In this document: positions 1,913 through 54,462 of the stretch, piece by piece
Numbering within the stretch: the stretch's first letter is position 1
How the letters are laid out: the number at the start of each line of letters is the position of its first letter
DNA from: Acidilutibacter cellobiosedens
Lineage (GTDB): Bacteria; Bacillota; Clostridia; Tissierellales; Acidilutibacteraceae
Length of the DNA: 64,000 nucleotides
Assembly: GCF_004103715.1 (NCBI RefSeq)
Contig: NZ_CP035282.1
Location: forward strand, 3,186,501-3,250,500
Direction: 5' to 3'
Notes under the pieces: model-generated
The model's input: only the letters and a program-made list of their open reading frames with translations
The model's database searches: none
Told to the model about the DNA's origin: nothing
Made by a program: the position numbers and the translations under genes

Positions 1913-1940
1913 TTTACATTATGGTTACAAATAAGTTACA
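1913..1940 (-). promoter_or_regulatory. Candidate OmpR-family response-regulator site (three direct repeats)
   Basis: On the plus strand TTTACA (1913), GTTACA (1924) and GTTACA (1935) are each separated by 5 nt, a period of 11 bp on one DNA face. This is the usual architecture of OmpR/PhoB-family binding sites. It lies about 95 nt upstream of the minus-strand propeller gene start. A similar pair is at 6776-6792 on the other side of the two-component locus. Confidence 0.45.
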
Positions 1941-1979: not shown

Positions 1980-2717
1980 TCAATTTCTTATTTTTTTTAT
2001 ACTTATTATTGACAAATATATGAAAAATACAGTAAATAATAAAGTTGAAATCAACATCTTTATATATTCCGATACTTTAAGCATTTCTGTTTCATTTGAC
2101 GACATTCCCTTTATCAATAATGAATTTGGTAAAAAATATACCAGATTTTCTCCCAAGCCCTTAAAAACATAAAATCCGATTCCGATAAAACATAAAAACA
2201 GGGCAATGCCTACAGGAACAGAAAAAGATTTTATATTCATAGATATAAAAGATTGCATGCTGCAAACAGAAATAGATATGATCCAGCTTATTCCCACCCA
2301 AATAAATACTTCAGGGGGAAATTCGGTTTTAAATCCGAATACAAATTTTCCCGTTACATAATAAAATATCAAGAATATCGCTTGAATACATAATGAAACT
2401 ATAGATATGGAGACAATTTTTGAGATAATAAGTTGTAAATATGAATAGGGTAAAGCTAAAATCCTGTTCCAATTATTATCCTTATGTTCCATTCTCCAAC
2501 TATAAGAACATATAATTGCAATGGTAATGGTATAAAAAAAGAAACCGTAAAATAAACTTACTTGAGTCCATAAAGAATACCACTCGCTTTTTAATATCTC
2601 TCTATTCAAATAGTAATTTCCGCTTCCTAAAAAAACAGAAATCATTGGTATAATAACTGCCGAAGTCCATATATTTGACTTTTTTAATTTCATAAATTCT
2701 ATTCTGATTAAATTCAT
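1980..2717 (-). CDS. Lantibiotic-immunity type ABC transporter permease (LanG/MutG-like)
   Basis: About 245 residues and six predicted membrane segments, opening with MNLIRIEFMKLKKSN as is typical of ABC-2 permeases of bacitracin/lantibiotic immunity transporters (BcrB, LanE/LanG, MutE/MutG). The reading frame is open further upstream. The ATG at 2717 is chosen because AGGAGGG at 2724-2730 sits 6 nt before it, overlapping the stop of the preceding permease gene. It is the last gene of a minus-strand operon (ATPase, permease, permease). It probably pairs with the upstream permease to expel membrane-active peptide from the cell surface; the exact substrate is not visible. Confidence 0.75.
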   Translation of the reverse strand: MNLIRIEFMKLKKSNIWTSAVIIPMISVFLGSGNYYLNREILKSEWYSLWTQVSLFYGFFFYTITIAIICSYSWRMEHKDNNWNRILALPYSYLQLIISKIVSISIVSLCIQAIFLIFYYVTGKFVFGFKTEFPPEVFIWVGISWIISISVCSMQSFISMNIKSFSVPVGIALFLCFIGIGFYVFKGLGENLVYFLPNSLLIKGMSSNETEMLKVSEYIKMLISTLLFTVFFIYLSIISIKKIRN

Positions 2718-2728
2718 CATATGCCCTC

Positions 2729-3505
2729 CTAAAAATCTAATTTTTTCAGCTTTCGGCGACTCCATACAAACACAAAGATGCCGAGTAAAGCAGAAACCAA
2801 AAGAGGATATAACCTCATAGGAACTAATTTCAGCCCCCATTGGTCTTTCCCAGTCTTAACAAATTCTGTCGATATAAGATGAGCATAATAAGAATAAAGT
2901 ATAAACCGACTAATGCCGAAGGGTAAAAGTATTCCTATAATTCCAGATAAGGAGCCGCATACACTAAGAGCTAATCCAATAAGCTGATTTTCATAACGCA
3001 TAGCCAAAAAATAATGGATAGTCATAATGGCAAAACTTATGGCTATAATGGAAATTAAAGTCACAGTTAATCTCTCTACTGGTATTGGCATAGTTATTCC
3101 GACTTTTCTTCCTACCAGCACAAGCAAAATTCCTTCCAAAATTTGAAATATAATATATTTTAGGAAGATGGATAAAAATTTAATATCAAATATTTCCTCC
3201 ATAGTCCATCCGGAAGTCTTTAACACCTTCCACATATCTCCCCTATTTTCTATATCAGCTACTCTGCTTGTAATGACTGCAAGTAAAGTCGGCATAAAAA
3301 TTGTTTTTGCTATTAAATAACTATTTATCAATTGTAACCACGAATAGCTTTCCGGTTTATTTATTGTACTCTGAAAATTCGAATCCAAAGCTGTCATAAT
3401 AACTATCCCCATATCCATAAATAAAAATAAAAGAAATATAAGCGATAGATATAGATGGCGGTATTTTTTATTTTCCACTGAAAATTTTTTTATTTTATTT
3501 ATCAC
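2729..3505 (-). CDS. Lantibiotic-immunity type ABC transporter permease (LanE/MutE-like)
   Basis: About 258 residues with six hydrophobic segments and no soluble domain, in the ABC-2 permease class of LanE/MutE. A GTG nine bases upstream (3514) overlaps the ribosome binding site AAGAGGTG. The GTG at 3505 has correct spacing and gives MINKIKKF. It lies between the ATPase gene (16 nt upstream) and the second permease gene (11 nt downstream), so the three are almost certainly one transcript and one complex. Self-protection against a peptide antibiotic is inferred from family and from the adjacent two-component system; no lantibiotic structural gene was seen. Confidence 0.75.
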   Translation of the reverse strand: MINKIKKFSVENKKYRHLYLSLIFLLFLFMDMGIVIMTALDSNFQSTINKPESYSWLQLINSYLIAKTIFMPTLLAVITSRVADIENRGDMWKVLKTSGWTMEEIFDIKFLSIFLKYIIFQILEGILLVLVGRKVGITMPIPVERLTVTLISIIAISFAIMTIHYFLAMRYENQLIGLALSVCGSLSGIIGILLPFGISRFILYSYYAHLISTEFVKTGKDQWGLKLVPMRLYPLLVSALLGIFVFVWSRRKLKKLDF

Positions 3506-3521
3506 AGAATTCACCTCTTTC

Positions 3522-4427
3522 TTATAAACTTTTCTTTCCTGTCAATTGAATAAACAACTCTTCCAATGATTTTGTCCTCTCTTCCATCCGATACAGTTCT
3601 ATTCCGCTATCAATAATTTTTTTTGCACAATAGGCAGTTTCACTATCGGATAAATCTGATATTAATACTCCTTCTTCCCTAAGTTCAGAATTTTTTTCCT
3701 TAAACAGTACAAAAGTCTTCTGCGGATTGGATGTTTTAAAATAAATACTTGGATGGTTATCTCTTTTCAGTTCTGCCAAACTTCCTTCAAAAATCATATG
3801 ACCTTTGTTTATGATACCGATACTGCTTACTACTTTTTCTACTTCATCTAAGATATGGCTGGACATCATAACTGTCATTCCGTAATCCTTGGGAAGAGTC
3901 TTTATTAACTTCCTCATTTCTTCCATTCCCGCAGGATCAAGTCCGTTGGTCGGCTCATCTAATATAATAAGCTTTGGAAAATTAGAAATGGCCATAGCTA
4001 CTCCCAGCCTTTGCTTCATGCCAAGAGAATAGTTTTTTACCTTTTTATTCATGTGGTTCTTTAGACCTACAATTTGAATAGCCTTCTCTATATTTTTTTT
4101 TGGTACATCCTTTAAAACCTGTATAATTTCCATATTCTCCATTCCCGTCAAATGAGAATAATATGAAGGGCCTTCAATCAATGAACCTATCTGTTGTAGA
4201 AGCGCTACTCTCGTATTATCATTCATTTCTCTTCCCATAATTTGAATTTTACCGTCAGTAGGTGTGACAAGAGATAAAATCATCTTCATGGTTGTAGATT
4301 TTCCGGCACCGTTTGGTCCGAGAAATCCATATATTTCTCCCTCTTTTATCCGTAAGGAATCAATATTGACAACTGTTTCTCTGCCATATTTTTTTATAAG
4401 ATTTTTAATTTCAATCATCATGGTCAT
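3522..4427 (-). CDS. Lantibiotic-immunity type ABC transporter ATPase (LanF/BcrA-like)
   Basis: About 301 residues. Walker A GPNGAGKST, signature YSLGMKQRLGVA and Walker B LIILDEPTNGLDP are all intact, followed by the C-terminal region typical of BcrA/MutF ATPases. The ATG at 4427 is preferred over the longer frame because AGGAGG lies 7 nt upstream. It leads an operon with two permeases and is divergent from the response regulator and kinase genes, an arrangement usual for peptide-sensing and detoxification modules. The promoter region carries a 10-bp direct repeat with 11-bp period (4491-4511). Confidence 0.85.
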   Translation of the reverse strand: MTMMIEIKNLIKKYGRETVVNIDSLRIKEGEIYGFLGPNGAGKSTTMKMILSLVTPTDGKIQIMGREMNDNTRVALLQQIGSLIEGPSYYSHLTGMENMEIIQVLKDVPKKNIEKAIQIVGLKNHMNKKVKNYSLGMKQRLGVAMAISNFPKLIILDEPTNGLDPAGMEEMRKLIKTLPKDYGMTVMMSSHILDEVEKVVSSIGIINKGHMIFEGSLAELKRDNHPSIYFKTSNPQKTFVLFKEKNSELREEGVLISDLSDSETAYCAKKIIDSGIELYRMEERTKSLEELFIQLTGKKSL

Positions 4428-4490
4428 TTTTATTCCTCCTTTTCTGAGACTACAGCATATCAGAAAATCCTTACACTGCCCTTGCAGCAT

Positions 4491-4511
4491 CCTTAAATTT
4501 ACCTTAAATTT
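4491..4511. promoter_or_regulatory. 11-bp-period direct repeat in divergent promoter region
   Basis: CCTTAAATTT at 4491-4500 is repeated exactly at 4502-4511, separated by one base. The period of 11 bp and the position between the divergent ABC operon and the response regulator gene suggest an OmpR-family operator. Its sequence differs from the GTTACA repeats at 1913 and 6776. Confidence 0.45.
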
Positions 4512-4570
4512 GCGAATAATTTTTTTTACAAAATAATATTATGATATAATTCCATTGGAAGGTGGTATTA

Positions 4571-5278
4571 TTGAGTAATATGGATTATCTTAAAACCAAA
4601 CATATCCTTCTTGTTGACGACGAAAAAGCATTGTTAGATCTGCTTCAGACTATTTTGCAAGAAGAAGGTTATACCAATATAGCAAAAGCAAAAAACATGG
4701 GTGAAGCTTTAAATAGTTTTTATGAGTTCAAACCGGACATAATTATTTTAGATATCATGCTGCCTGATGGAGACGGTTTTCAATTTCTAAGTAAAATCAG
4801 AAAATTATCGGATGTCCCTGTTCTCTTTTTATCAGCAAAAGATGCCATGAACGATCAATATCAGGGTTTTTCATTAGGTGCGGATGATTACATTACAAAA
4901 CCTTTTCTTCCCAAAGATTTGGTCCTCCGTCTTCAAGCTGTTCTCCGAAGAACTTATAAAGAAAAATCGGAAACTATAGTTTTAAAATATTCGGAAATTC
5001 GATTTGAAACCGGAGAGATCATAAAGGGTAAAGAGGTTTTTGTTCTTACTAAAAAGGAATTTTCCATCCTTCAAACCTTATATCAAAATTCAAACCGTAT
5101 TGTTACAATAGACGGCTTGTGTCAAGCTGTCTGGGGGGATGCTTATTTTGGATATGAAAACTCATTAATGGCACATATCAGAAGAATTCGTGAAAAAATA
5201 GAAAAAAACCCTTCCTGTCCCGAATCCCTAATCACCATTAAGGGCTTAGGATATAAGCTAATTGTGGAAAGGAGATAA
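4571..5278 (+). CDS. OmpR-family response regulator
   Basis: About 235 residues. The receiver domain begins with ILLVDDEKALL; the phospho-acceptor is about Asp61 in IILDIMLPDGDGF, with the lysine in ADDYITKPF. The C-terminal winged helix (FVLTKKEFSILQTLYQNSNRIVT ... AHIRRIREKIE) is the OmpR/PhoB DNA-binding type. Start is uncertain: GTG 4562 lies inside the GGAAGGTGG ribosome site, TTG 4571 has a 5-nt spacer, and ATG 4580 is 14 nt away. It is followed after 4 nt by the kinase gene and is divergent from the immunity ABC operon, which it probably controls. Confidence 0.9.
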   Translation: MSNMDYLKTKHILLVDDEKALLDLLQTILQEEGYTNIAKAKNMGEALNSFYEFKPDIIILDIMLPDGDGFQFLSKIRKLSDVPVLFLSAKDAMNDQYQGFSLGADDYITKPFLPKDLVLRLQAVLRRTYKEKSETIVLKYSEIRFETGEIIKGKEVFVLTKKEFSILQTLYQNSNRIVTIDGLCQAVWGDAYFGYENSLMAHIRRIREKIEKNPSCPESLITIKGLGYKLIVERR

Positions 5279-5282
5279 AAAC

Positions 5283-6677
5283 ATGCAATCTACAGTACGA
5301 TTTATCCGCAGAAACTTACTTGCTTTTTCTCTTTCCTTGTTTATTTTATTTATTATCAATTTAATATTATTCACTTATTTGAACTATAAAGCTATCAGTA
5401 TCACTGCTTCTATCATTCCTCCGGATGAACTTAGCAATAAATTAATAGATCAAATCAATCAAAATAATTCAGTTGTAGTTATAGATAAGAACGATCTTGC
5501 ACTGCTTGAAAAAAATAAAATTTGGGCTATGGTCATTGACGATAAAACCGGAAAAGTAATATGGAGTAAGGATTTACCGAAAGAAATTCCAATAAAATAT
5601 TCCATAAAAGACGTTGCTTTGTTTACCCGATATTATCTAAAAGACTATCCCGTTTTCACTTATATAAATAATAAAGGACTTTTAGTACTGGGTTATCCTA
5701 AGGACAGCTATGGAAAGATTCCTACTAATGCTTTTCACGTGCGGATAGTACAAAATTTGCCCCGAAATATAATGTATTATTTACTGTTTAATTTATTGGT
5801 TGTTTTCATCCTCTATATGATATCAAAAAGAAAACTATTGCAATCTATAAATCCCATTACTAATGCTATATGCCGGATTTCAAACGGAGAAAAAATTCAA
5901 TTGAAAGAAAATGGGGATTTGTTGGATATCAAAATAGCTGTTAATAAAACATCAAAACAGCTATTAGAAAAAGATTCCATGAGAACAAATTGGATTGCCG
6001 GAATCAGTCATGACATAAGAACGCCCCTGTCTCTGATTATAGGATATATTGATCGTCTTTCCCAAAGTAAGCATCTTGACGATATAGAGAAAAAAGAGCT
6101 GGAACTAATTCAAAGTAATAGTGTTCAAATTCAAAATTTAGTTAATGATTTAAATTTAACCTCACGATTAGAATATAATTTAGTGCCTATGAAAAAAAAG
6201 GATATTTCTATTGTAAAAATCCTGCGGGAGGTTATTGTAGATTATATGAACCATGAAATCTACAGTTCCCTGTACGATTTCAATTTTATTTCCGATAGTA
6301 TTCCTTCCTCCACTATGGTAAACGGGGACGAAAAACTATTGGAGCGAGCTTTCAGAAATCTCATTTTAAATTCCATAAAACACAATCCACAAGGGTGCCA
6401 AATTCAAATAGAAATTACTATGAATACCGCCGAAGTTAATGTTGATATTTCTGATAATGGAGTTGGCGTTTCTGAAGAAAAATTGAAGCTTTTAAACTAT
6501 TCGGTAACAGAACTTATCAAAAGAAATACTAAAACTGAAAGATCTCATGGATTAGGTTTGTTGATTGTAAAACAAATTATTGAATTACATGAGGGTTCCG
6601 TTAACTTTAGAAGTGTTGAAAGCCACGGGTTCAAAACGAGGATAACTTTGCCTTTGCATAACAAAAATAAGACCTAG
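5283..6677 (+). CDS. Sensor histidine kinase, two-component partner
   Basis: About 464 residues. Two membrane segments (about residues 12-34 and 170-188) flank a ~130-residue extracellular part. HisKA has its phospho-acceptor at about His243 in GISHDIRTPLSLIIGYIDRL. The HATPase_c N box NLILNSIKHNP, DNGVGVSEE and SHGLGLLIVKQI are present. ATG at 5283 follows AAGGAGA and sits 4 nt after the response regulator stop. The sizeable external domain suggests direct ligand sensing, unlike the short loops of BceS-type kinases; the ligand is unknown. Confidence 0.9.
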   Translation: MQSTVRFIRRNLLAFSLSLFILFIINLILFTYLNYKAISITASIIPPDELSNKLIDQINQNNSVVVIDKNDLALLEKNKIWAMVIDDKTGKVIWSKDLPKEIPIKYSIKDVALFTRYYLKDYPVFTYINNKGLLVLGYPKDSYGKIPTNAFHVRIVQNLPRNIMYYLLFNLLVVFILYMISKRKLLQSINPITNAICRISNGEKIQLKENGDLLDIKIAVNKTSKQLLEKDSMRTNWIAGISHDIRTPLSLIIGYIDRLSQSKHLDDIEKKELELIQSNSVQIQNLVNDLNLTSRLEYNLVPMKKKDISIVKILREVIVDYMNHEIYSSLYDFNFISDSIPSSTMVNGDEKLLERAFRNLILNSIKHNPQGCQIQIEITMNTAEVNVDISDNGVGVSEEKLKLLNYSVTELIKRNTKTERSHGLGLLIVKQIIELHEGSVNFRSVESHGFKTRITLPLHNKNKT

Positions 6678-6706
6678 TTCTGTAAATCGCTTGGGGTAGA
6701 ACTAGG
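6665..6706 (-). terminator. Hairpin between convergent genes, T-rich on the minus strand
   Basis: A perfect 9-bp inverted repeat, cctagttct (6673-6681) with agaactagg (6698-6706), overlaps the kinase stop codon. Read on the minus strand it is followed by TCTTATTTTTG, fitting an intrinsic terminator for a leftward transcript. On the plus strand no T-run follows. Confidence 0.45.
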
Positions 6707-6748
6707 CCAACGGCGGGCTTATTAATCTAATTTAAGCTTACTATACTT

Positions 6749-6792
6749 AGTATAACAATTATCCATATAAAAATCGTTACAAATGAGTTACA
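6749..6792 (-). promoter_or_regulatory. Candidate response-regulator-activated leftward promoter
   Basis: GTTACA at 6776 and 6787 (plus strand) form a direct repeat of 11-bp period. Read leftward, TGTAAC-N5-TGTAAC is followed after 21 nt by TATACT (6749-6754), with no recognisable -35. This is the layout of an activator-dependent promoter. It lies between the convergent kinase and cobQ genes and would transcribe toward the kinase 3' end. Confidence 0.35.
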
Positions 6793-6864: not shown

Positions 6865-8352
6865 CTAAACGAACTCCCGTCCGATTATTTTATATATCCT
6901 TTTCATATCAAGGCTGTTCCTTACTATATCCGCCAATTTATTCAATTCCTTATCTCTGAGGCTTTCATAAATATCGGATCTTCTAAGAGGAAGCCCTTTT
7001 TTGCTTCTTATATTGTTAAGTATATATTCTCTAAATTCCGTACCATCAAATATCCCGTGAATATATGTTCCCATTATATTGCCCTTTTCATTTACGGTGC
7101 CATCAGGATAATTCGCTTTTTCTCCATTCTTGTCCACAATTTCAAATAATTTTTTAGCCTTATCCCCATATTCACATATTCCCATATGTATTTCGTATCC
7201 ATAAACCTTCATATTGCCTTTCAATCCTATGGTTTCCGCTTCTATTCTGGTTGTGGTTTTTTCTTCATTAAACACAGTCCCTATGTCTAAAAGGTCCATC
7301 CCTTCTATTTCCTTTTCATCCGTTTCAACTCCATAGGGATCTTTTATCCACCTTCCAAGCATCTGATATCCTCCGCAGATCCCTATGATATTCCCGATAT
7401 TTGAATATTCCTTAATTAAATCTTCCAAGCCTGTTTTTCGCAAGGCTATAAGATCCCCTATGGTGTTTTTGCTTCCCGGTATAATAAGTATATCCGGATT
7501 CCCAAATTCTTCTTTGGATTCTATAAACCTTATAGATACATCTTTTTCGTTTTTTAACGGATCAATATCCGTAAAGTTCGAAATATGAGGAAGCTTTATT
7601 ACAGCTATATCTATAGGGGCCGTCACTTTCTTGCTGAATTCTATTGCCCCGTCTTCGTCTTCTAACATAAGCCTAAAATAAGGGACTACTCCAAGGCATG
7701 GTATATGGATAATATCTTCAAGCATGGTAAGACCGGGCTTCAATATTTCCACATCCCCCCTGAATTTATTAATTATTGTCCCTTTCACTCTCTTGCGTTC
7801 TTCATTGTTAAGTAAAAGCATAGTGCCTGCTAAAGAAGCAAATACCCCTCCTTTATCTATATCCCCTACAATAAGTACGGGAGCATTGGCTATTTCAGCC
7901 ATTCCCATATTCACTATATCCTTATCTCTCAAATTTATCTCAGCAGGGCTTCCCGCCCCTTCTATAACGACTATATCAAATTTCCTTTCCAGGTCCTCAA
8001 ATTGTTCTTTAATCATATCTTTAAACATGGATTTCATATTATGATACTCCATAGCCGTAAAATTTCCATAGACATTTCCATTTACAATTACTTGGCTTTT
8101 CTTATCCGAAGTAGGTTTAAGAAGTATGGGATTCATATAAAATTCCGGTTCCAGACCACAGGCATATGCTTGAAGTACCTGAGCCCGGCCCATCTCCTTT
8201 CCCGTTAAAGTTATATATGAATTTAAAGACATATTTTGAGATTTAAAGGGTACCACCTTAAAACCGTCCTGAGTGAATATCCTGCAAAGAGCTGCAACTA
8301 AAACACTTTTACCAACTGATGAAGCCGTCCCTTGTATCATTAATTTAGACAT
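6865..8352 (-). CDS. cobQ: Cobyric acid synthase (CobQ/CbiP)
   Basis: 495 residues, the usual length. The enzyme amidates four carboxylates of adenosylcobyrinate a,c-diamide using glutamine and ATP. The N-terminal P-loop-like domain has GTASSVGKS and [12 protein letters not shown]. The C-terminal class I glutaminase domain carries the nucleophile in [11 protein letters not shown] and the histidine in [10 protein letters not shown]. Start ATG follows GGGG with a 9-nt spacer. It stands alone, without other cob genes nearby; the corrinoid methyltransferase operon at 54.6-60 kb is the only visible consumer of the cofactor. Confidence 0.95.
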
Positions 8353-42597: not shown

Positions 42598-42845
42598 AAA
42601 AAAACTCCCGAACCTAAGAAAAAATTCTTAGGAACGAGAGTTGAATTTCGCGTTACCATCCTAATTTGCCTGTACCTCACGATATAAGCCTCTTCAAGTA
42701 CGTTATATAACAATGATTATACTCTATCGCTATAACGGGCAAACCCGGTGCAGCCTAAATCTAATGATCCCGGTGCACAACTCCAAGGCTATTTTCACTT
42801 CAATACCCTTTGTTTCTTCTCACCATAGGAAATTCTCTGTAAAAG
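42598..42845 (-). promoter_or_regulatory. T-box leader (tRNA-sensing riboswitch) with terminator
   Basis: On the minus strand the T-box sequence AGGATGGTAACGCG (42649-42662) precedes a terminator. The terminator stem arms are 42604-42618 and 42626-42642, and 7 T residues follow. Upstream, the stretch AGAGAATTTCC...GGTGAGAAG resembles the start of stem I. A methionine specifier is expected from the downstream gene, but I could not place the specifier codon with certainty. Confidence 0.85.
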
Positions 42846-43133
42846 TATTATTAAAGCTACTTTTCTTTGTATTTAAATTATTAGATATATTACAGTACAT
42901 GCCCTCTATTTTATTCCATATATTTTTAATTTCCTTCACAATTTAAAAAACCTGCCATAGATGATTATTGATGAAATTGTTCCTAATGATGTAACTTTAG
43001 GCTGACAAAAGCGCCCTGCCGACTGAAAATTTTTGGTAAGCAGGACGGCTTGCGCCGTGAAGATTATTTCGCATTATCTTTGATTTGGTAAAACGCTATG
43101 ATTACAAGCAAATTGATAATAATCTTGATGAAT
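42846..43133. other. Intergenic region without a recognised gene
   Basis: It contains a GC-richer hairpin-prone segment at about 43010-43065 (GCGCCCTGCC...GGACGGCTTGCGCC) of unknown meaning. No coding frame is supported. Confidence 0.35.
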
Positions 43134-48990: not shown

Positions 48991-49029
48991 GAAAAAACAC
49001 GCATAATTGAAAAAACAGAAATGGTTAAA

Positions 49030-49152
49030 TTTGTTTCATACGCTTACGAGGTTAGCTGACGGGTTCGGATAGAAACTACCCTATGTTTTAATAAAGCAAA
49101 ACAATGCACCCCAACGTTGGTTCCCCCGTTTTCCTTTTGGAAATTCAGCAAA
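49030..49152 (-). promoter_or_regulatory. ydaO-yuaA class riboswitch (cyclic di-AMP)
   Basis: On the minus strand the conserved blocks occur in order: GCTGAATTTCC-AAAA-GGAAAACGGGGGAACC, then GGGGTGCATT, TAGGGTAG...CTATCCGAACCCG, and TCAGCTAACCTCGTAAGCG. These match the ydaO consensus (GAACC, CCCG(A/T)CAGCTAAC). A terminator follows 40 nt later, so binding of c-di-AMP presumably switches off ehuBCDA. Confidence 0.85.
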
Positions 49153-49335
49153 ATATAACTTTACTGAGTTGTTTAACTTATAAAGATATAATTTAATAGA
49201 CATATCTTAATGGATATAATTTAATAAAAATGGTAACACATATTATTTTTAATGTCAAGGCGAAAAATTCTCCGAACATAAATTTTGTATTAAGATTTAA
49301 TCGAAATCCAATACCATTAAAATGAATTGATTATT

Positions 49336-53826: not shown

Positions 53827-54177
53827 AAAAAACGCAAAAATTACTCTACTTCTTCGGTACTATTCAGCAATCCGACTCCCTTGTACATTGGATTACCTTG
53901 CTTTGTTATCACTTGATTTATCCTACTTCTCTGCGTAAGAGCCATAGGGTCTCCCAAGTTGACCGAATCATATCAATGTGTAGAGCGAAAAGCATTGGAC
54001 CCCGAGGAAGACAACATATTCTTGCATAGCGAATATATTGATGTTGTTTTCTGTCCTGATTGGGATTTCGAGACTCTATCCTTTTAACTAATGTTTACCG
54101 CCTACTACCTAACTGTCCACGCTTAACATCATAAGTCGCCTGACCGATGCTCAAGGCTCGCTATAAGTGGTTTGCTA
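53827..54177 (-). mobile_element. Probable group II intron remnant (5' region and start of the reverse transcriptase region)
   Basis: On the minus strand the segment contains ATAGCGAGCCTTGAGC and GGCGAC blocks reminiscent of intron domain I, then AACTTGGGAGACCCTATG. Finally GGGAGTCGGATTGCTGAATAG and TACCGAAG would read ESDCxIVPK apart from a stop, like the N-terminus of intron maturases. The ribozyme and maturase are otherwise absent. Identification is by pattern memory only. Confidence 0.4.
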
Positions 54178-54462
54178 AACCTTATTCCAAGTATTTTTAT
54201 TTTCATAATTAAATTCAAATACCTTATTTTTAAAAATGGCAATAACATCTGTTTCTTTCCAAAAATGCATATACCAATCCCCAATAATATGCTTAGACAA
54301 CTCCTGTATTTCTTCCTTTGTTACATCGACCTCATACATATGCCACCTATCGACAGGATTGGTATGTCCTGTTATCCGCATTTTTCTTACGTTCAGTTCA
54401 TTAAGTAATCTGTTGTCGTCAAGACTCTCCTCTACAATAATTCCGGTATAATCCTTTGCCAT
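54175..54462 (-). pseudogene. Small conserved protein, 3'-truncated (partner of 44366-44457)
   Basis: ATG at 54462 follows AGGAG by 8 nt. MAKDYTGIIVEESLDDNRLL, DRWHMYEVDVTKEEIQELSKHI and GDWYMHFWKETDVIAIFKNKVFEFNYENKNTWNKV are typical of a ~115-residue conserved hypothetical family. The usual C-terminal ~20 residues are missing and the gene runs into the probable intron remnant. The missing end is found at 44366-44457. Confidence 0.75.

Follow-up and report, generated by a model that had tools for sequence, protein, structure and literature searches.

Within a 64,000-nucleotide stretch of the Acidilutibacter cellobiosedens genome (contig NZ_CP035282.1; this whole stretch is hereafter called the window), a sensor histidine kinase gene and a cobyric acid synthase (CobQ) gene converge on a short region that carries a promoter and a terminator hairpin, both directed leftward (Table 1). 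The kinase gene closes a locus (1980–6677) that encodes a lantibiotic protection ABC transporter and a two-component system, and that is CprABC/CprRK-like. An earlier note on this DNA had described a leftward promoter with no gene behind it, composed of TGTAAC-N5-TGTAAC, 21 nt, and TATACT, followed on the same strand by a 9-bp hairpin and a T tract, and we found both as described, at 6749–6792 and 6662–6706. The hairpin contains a perfect inverted repeat (arms CCTAGTTCT, 6698–6706, and AGAACTAGG, 6673–6681; 100% complementary, 16 nt between them), begins about 42 nt past TATACT, and is followed by CTTATTTTTG. Allowing at most 1 mismatch, we counted 3 copies of the two-box motif in the window, where chance would give 0.19; the hairpin pattern, which was derived from the site itself, occurred once against 0.03 expected.

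Promoter and hairpin together form the complete gene-less leftward unit that the note had envisaged, with a predicted RNA of approximately 79 nt that would overlap the last approximately 14 nt of the kinase gene. For this RNA, the computed fold has a free energy of -17.9 kcal/mol (z -2.05), which was matched by 8 of 200 shuffled sequences, and the longest reading frame has 2 codons. With its own promoter, an intrinsic terminator, and no ORF, the element has, as far as sequence can tell, the makings of a small RNA (sRNA) gene. A simple promoter and terminator scan of the window listed neither its promoter nor its hairpin, because the scan looks for −35-like hexamers and for loops 3 to 8 nt long, and the site has neither. 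Rfam gave no match between 6000 and 7500 at E values up to 1, and a search of the whole window placed nothing at the element. Elsewhere on the minus strand, the Rfam search detected a T-box leader, a c-di-AMP riboswitch, and a group II intron end (42627–42876, 49026–49160, and 53990–54197).

Table 1. Parts of the element and its flanking genes (window coordinates).
Feature	Position	Strand	Basis
Direct repeat TGTAAC-N5-TGTAAC (TGTAACTCATTTGTAAC), WalR-type box	6776–6792	minus	Sequence; counterpart upstream of the lipoprotein gene of related genomes
GATTT (GAYTT in most relatives), abuts the second box and opens the spacer	6771–6775	minus	Alignment with relatives
−10 hexamer TATACT, 21 nt past the box	6749–6754	minus	Sequence and spacing in lipoprotein loci
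Predicted non-coding RNA, approximately 79 nt, both ends inferred	6664–6742	minus	−10 position and T tract
What is left of the 5′ leader of the lipoprotein mRNA	6724–6742	minus	Alignment to the L063, L064, and L065 leaders
Putative deletion junction AAT, common to both ends in L063/L065-like sequence	6721–6723	minus	Alignments, by eye
TAA that once ended the lipoprotein reading frame	6719–6721	minus	Comparison with relatives
Unpaired C-rich segment CCCGCC (CCCACC in most relatives)	6712–6717	minus	Hairpin alignment
Terminator hairpin, 11 bp including one G-U, ACCCC (6693–6697) in the loop	6671–6708	minus	Fold and alignment
Terminator T tract CTTATTTTTG	6662–6671	minus	Sequence
Sensor histidine kinase gene, stop codon within the hairpin	5283–6677	plus	Neighbor
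Cobyric acid synthase (CobQ) gene, upstream of the element, same strand	6865–8352	minus	Neighbor

To trace the two halves of the element, we searched relatives of the window organism; the 60 relatives listed all belonged to the same order and none to its genus or family. The hairpin half at first matched a single genome and subsequently four (of genera g37 and g82, which share a family), the promoter half matched other genomes, and in the matched loci the promoter precedes and the hairpin follows one and the same gene, which encodes a predicted lipoprotein of approximately 330 amino acids. Promoter, hairpin-model, and protein searches were then run on 249 genomes of the order. An extended promoter pattern (TGTAAC-N5-TGTAACGAYTT-N14..18-TATA) gave 17 matches, one per genome, and its reversed control none; 16 of the 17 lie directly upstream of a lipoprotein gene that the protein search had located independently, and the 17th is the window. 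Similarly, a hairpin model (R1) gave 16 matches with E < 1e-10, 15 of which start at a lipoprotein stop codon, the 16th again being the window; R1 was built from 7 hairpins, the one in the window included, and these 7 match by construction. The remaining R1 hits (30 rows in all) were 4 weaker matches at lipoprotein genes (the intact paralog of the same genome, G036, G212, and G214) and 10 matches with E values of 0.001 to 0.05 away from such genes; these 10 were dismissed as chance, about 12 being expected for 249 genomes at 0.05. The window is thus the sole exception for both the promoter and the strong hairpin match, and no second strong ORF-less copy was found among the 249 genomes. A search of 391 genomes from the class, a sample that shares some members with the order set, gave R1 matches at E ≤ 0.001 only in the window's own genome. 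An exact hairpin pattern occurred in genome contigs of Schnuerera ultunensis only and in no viral contig, and blastn of phages and plasmids returned no match to the element. We discarded a mobile palindromic repeat as an explanation, since all strong copies except the one in the window sit at a single gene family.

The lipoprotein family is present in 62 of the 249 genomes (E ≤ 1e-6). We fetched 30 of its loci, of which 29 were readable (L081, matched near a contig start, was left out), and box and TATANT were 21 nt apart in 26 of these and 22 nt apart in one; L067 and L091 had no match to this pattern. The 3′ ends of several lipoprotein genes are of a different kind (e.g., L072, L074, L076–L079, L082, L087, L089, L090, and L092), so the terminator hairpin is not universal in the family. 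The element carries the promoter typical of the family (TGTAAC-N5-TGTAAC-N21-TATANT) and the stop codon fused to a GCCCACC..TAGTTCT hairpin and T tract that many, though not all, relatives have, and it lacks the lipoprotein reading frame. The only lipoprotein match in its own genome is an intact paralog (P0001, near 3506338–3507276), and we therefore regard the element as an ORF-less derivative of the family, not a member. On these comparisons, the element is shown to be an ORF-less copy of a lipoprotein gene that occurs in this order, reduced to the promoter, a leader of approximately 20 nt, the stop codon, and the terminator. The S. ultunensis lipoprotein (P0002, L048:1330–2334) is 40% identical to P0001, and neither protein reaches any Pfam or NCBIfam cut-off.

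The junction could be read against the three loci that align best with the window (L064, L063, and L065, ranks 1 to 3 of 29 scored), all from one genus (g37); L063 is S. ultunensis, which NCBI places in the Tissierellales. Against these loci, the window runs through promoter and leader up to GATTAAT and then continues with AATAAGCCC, the lysine and stop codons followed by the terminator. The ribosome-binding site and the entire coding region are gone, and little else, as this alignment indicates. In L063 and L065, the 3 nt AAT stand on both sides of the junction. In the lipoprotein gene of S. ultunensis DSM 10521, promoter boxes, spacer, start of the 5′ leader, stop codon, and hairpin all align with the element, whereas the coding region of approximately 1 kb and the ribosome-binding site have no counterpart in it. 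The spacer of the window is identical to those of L063–L065 at 16 to 17 of 21 positions (17 of 21 among the three themselves) and to that of its own paralog at 6 of 21. Because it is far closer to the Schnuerera copies than to the intact paralog of the same genome, the element looks imported, and the alignments fit import from a Schnuerera-like donor. The most likely course of events would be the arrival of a lipoprotein unit from such a relative and its insertion between the kinase and CobQ genes, with the coding region of approximately 1 kb lost, before or after insertion, through a single deletion across the 3-nt AAT repeat.

On the kinase side, the related kinases G013, G241, and G235 (74%, 72%, and 70% identical) stop a few codons before the window kinase. 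In two of them, G241 and G235, the gene is followed by a hairpin of its own with CTTATTT, which begins with AATAAGCC or is located right at it; this 3′ hairpin site may have been the point of recombination. The final codons and stop of the window kinase (6663–6677) are encoded by the opposite strand of the imported terminator. That these relatives end in a hairpin of their own also speaks for a different explanation, by which the imported hairpin was kept purely as a terminator of the cobQ mRNA, the kinase mRNA, or both, and the promoter is dead. The neighboring genes are convergent, the minus-strand T tract (6662–6671) is strong, and the sequence directly past cobQ offers no more than one candidate structure, which is long and A/U-rich (-13.2 kcal/mol, z -2.39). 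Against a dead promoter stand boxes, a 21-nt spacing, and a −10 that are all intact and match the lipoprotein promoters of relatives, and we consider this explanation improbable.

As to what would drive the promoter, its box fits the Bacillus subtilis WalR consensus TGTWAH-N5-TGTWAH, as given in PMC9210968. The genome has a WalR/WalK/YycI-like locus: a WalR-like regulator (at 3689243; 331.5 bits, just below the cut-off of 340), a kinase resembling WalK, and a protein with a YycI domain. Exact boxes occur at 5 places in the genome: upstream of the lipoprotein gene, of a polysaccharide deacetylase gene (Pfam), and of a PD40 gene in the window, near 568034, and at the element. One-mismatch boxes, 21 against 15 in the reversed control, are little above background, and the box combined with a −10 was found 14 times against 4. 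Some one-mismatch boxes precede a gene for an S-layer-like protein (as read by eye) and, divergently, an M23 peptidase gene. In Clostridioides difficile, overexpression of WalR raised pgdA 16-fold, according to the same source (PMC9210968). The box and its companion genes lead us to predict that the element switches with a cell-envelope regulon, and control of its promoter by WalR is likely on these grounds. The element thus resembles WalR (YycF) regulon promoters in its consensus box and in having companion sites at cell-envelope genes, and differs from them in that the unit has no protein product and that its control by WalR is predicted from the motif. A triple box (TGTAAC/TGTAAC/TGTAAA, 1913–1940, minus strand) lies upstream of the PD40 gene, which encodes an exported beta-propeller protein (501–1817) and is probably under the same regulator as the element.

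The earlier note had interpreted the leftward unit as feeding back on the two-component system beside it through an RNA antisense to the kinase message and induced by the local response regulator. The predicted RNA would overlap the final approximately 14 nt of the kinase gene and be complementary to the kinase 3′UTR, and 2 of the 5 exact boxes of the genome, at window positions 1924 and 6776, flank the kinase locus. However, the promoter and the terminator belong elsewhere to an unrelated lipoprotein gene, here without its frame, and the feedback loop is not supported. The related kinases G013 and G241 had no such box at distances up to about 1.5 kb (the G235 locus starts at a contig end without its upstream part, so promoter linkage was judged on these two), which makes the adjacent two-component system the less likely driver. 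The local genes moreover carry a different repeat, an 11-nt direct repeat (CCTTAAATTTA/CCTTAAATTTG, 4491–4512) in the gap that separates the lantibiotic-type ABC operon from the response regulator gene; this repeat is a candidate box for the local regulator; a simple TTAAA-N7-TTAAA pattern for it was not found in the two-component loci of relatives. The note had named lack of conservation of the −10 and repeats as grounds for refutation; both turned out to be strongly conserved in relatives, but ahead of the lipoprotein gene. The element adjoins the lantibiotic protection locus without deriving from it. Antisense feedback on the kinase ranks last, behind a transcribed scar and an incipient sRNA, and we hold it to be very improbable.

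An sRNA acting in trans deserves more weight. As a member of the WalR-type regulon born by deletion of the ORF, such an RNA would use the C-rich unpaired bulge and loop of its hairpin to pair with G-rich ribosome-binding sites. To examine the hairpin, we searched 32 sources and aligned the 20 sequences obtained, 19 of them from lipoprotein loci and one from the window. In this alignment, which was fitted to the structure and is thus biased toward pairing, 99% of the cells of the inner helix are paired and 3 pairs are changed on both sides; the stem covaries in the 3′UTRs of relatives, with CG/UA and AU/CG pairs altered on both sides. By eye, the bulge CCACC is present in 16 of the 20 hairpins (CCGCC in the window) and a CCC in the loop in 18. 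This conservation of bulge and loop is more than a mere terminator calls for and would fit the seed of an sRNA. The unit is also whole, and the deletion boundary falls exactly at the hairpin; that the deletion ends at the very edge of the conserved 3′ element suggests retention, not random loss. Against this stand the lack of the C-rich bulge in 3 of the 20 hairpins, the single strong ORF-less copy in 249 genomes, and predicted pairing with the 53 start regions tested in the window, which was no better than for shuffled sequences (equaled or exceeded by 73 of 100 shuffles for the loop and by 17 of 100 for the bulge). We regard a functional trans-acting sRNA as unlikely, though clearly less so than the two explanations above.

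Because the pairing did not exceed that of shuffles and the strong ORF-less form is single, we rank a transcribed scar first and an incipient sRNA second. We thus favor, with moderate confidence, the reading of the element as an imported lipoprotein copy that has lost its ORF and kept a WalR-type promoter. As the protein-coding middle is missing, a short non-coding RNA is the most that could be made; transcription from this promoter would yield the RNA of approximately 79 nt, stopping at the hairpin. This RNA would be mainly a by-product, and the hairpin would serve at most as an added leftward terminator between the convergent genes. Counterpoints to a scar are that the parts for transcription and folding are all intact and that the element diverges from the Schnuerera copies no further than these do among themselves, which could mean that selection is involved. 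A more speculative proposal, to which we give roughly the same low credence as to the trans-acting sRNA, is that of an sRNA gene at birth, in which the deletion fused a WalR-type promoter to the conserved, C-rich hairpin of a lipoprotein 3′UTR and created a free-standing regulated sRNA. The origin of new bacterial sRNA genes is hard to observe as it happens; among the papers listed by our literature searches, none dealt with this locus or with an sRNA born from such a fusion. Here both parents can be identified base by base in living relatives, which opens a direct test of whether a promoter–terminator fusion turns into a regulator or decays. An active element would share its logic with the CiaR csRNAs of Streptococcus pneumoniae, short non-coding RNAs driven by a response regulator, as described in PMC4507080; it differs from these in its regulator, in being one copy instead of five, and in that any target of it is hypothetical. 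If the sRNA reading were true, the lipoprotein mRNAs of the order would already carry a regulatory 3′UTR. The comparison also flags a conserved, covarying 3′UTR element in an uncharacterized lipoprotein family with a WalR-type promoter. In several relatives, the lipoprotein gene lies beside genes that we named by eye as DJ-1/PfpI-like and 3-methyladenine glycosylase-like.
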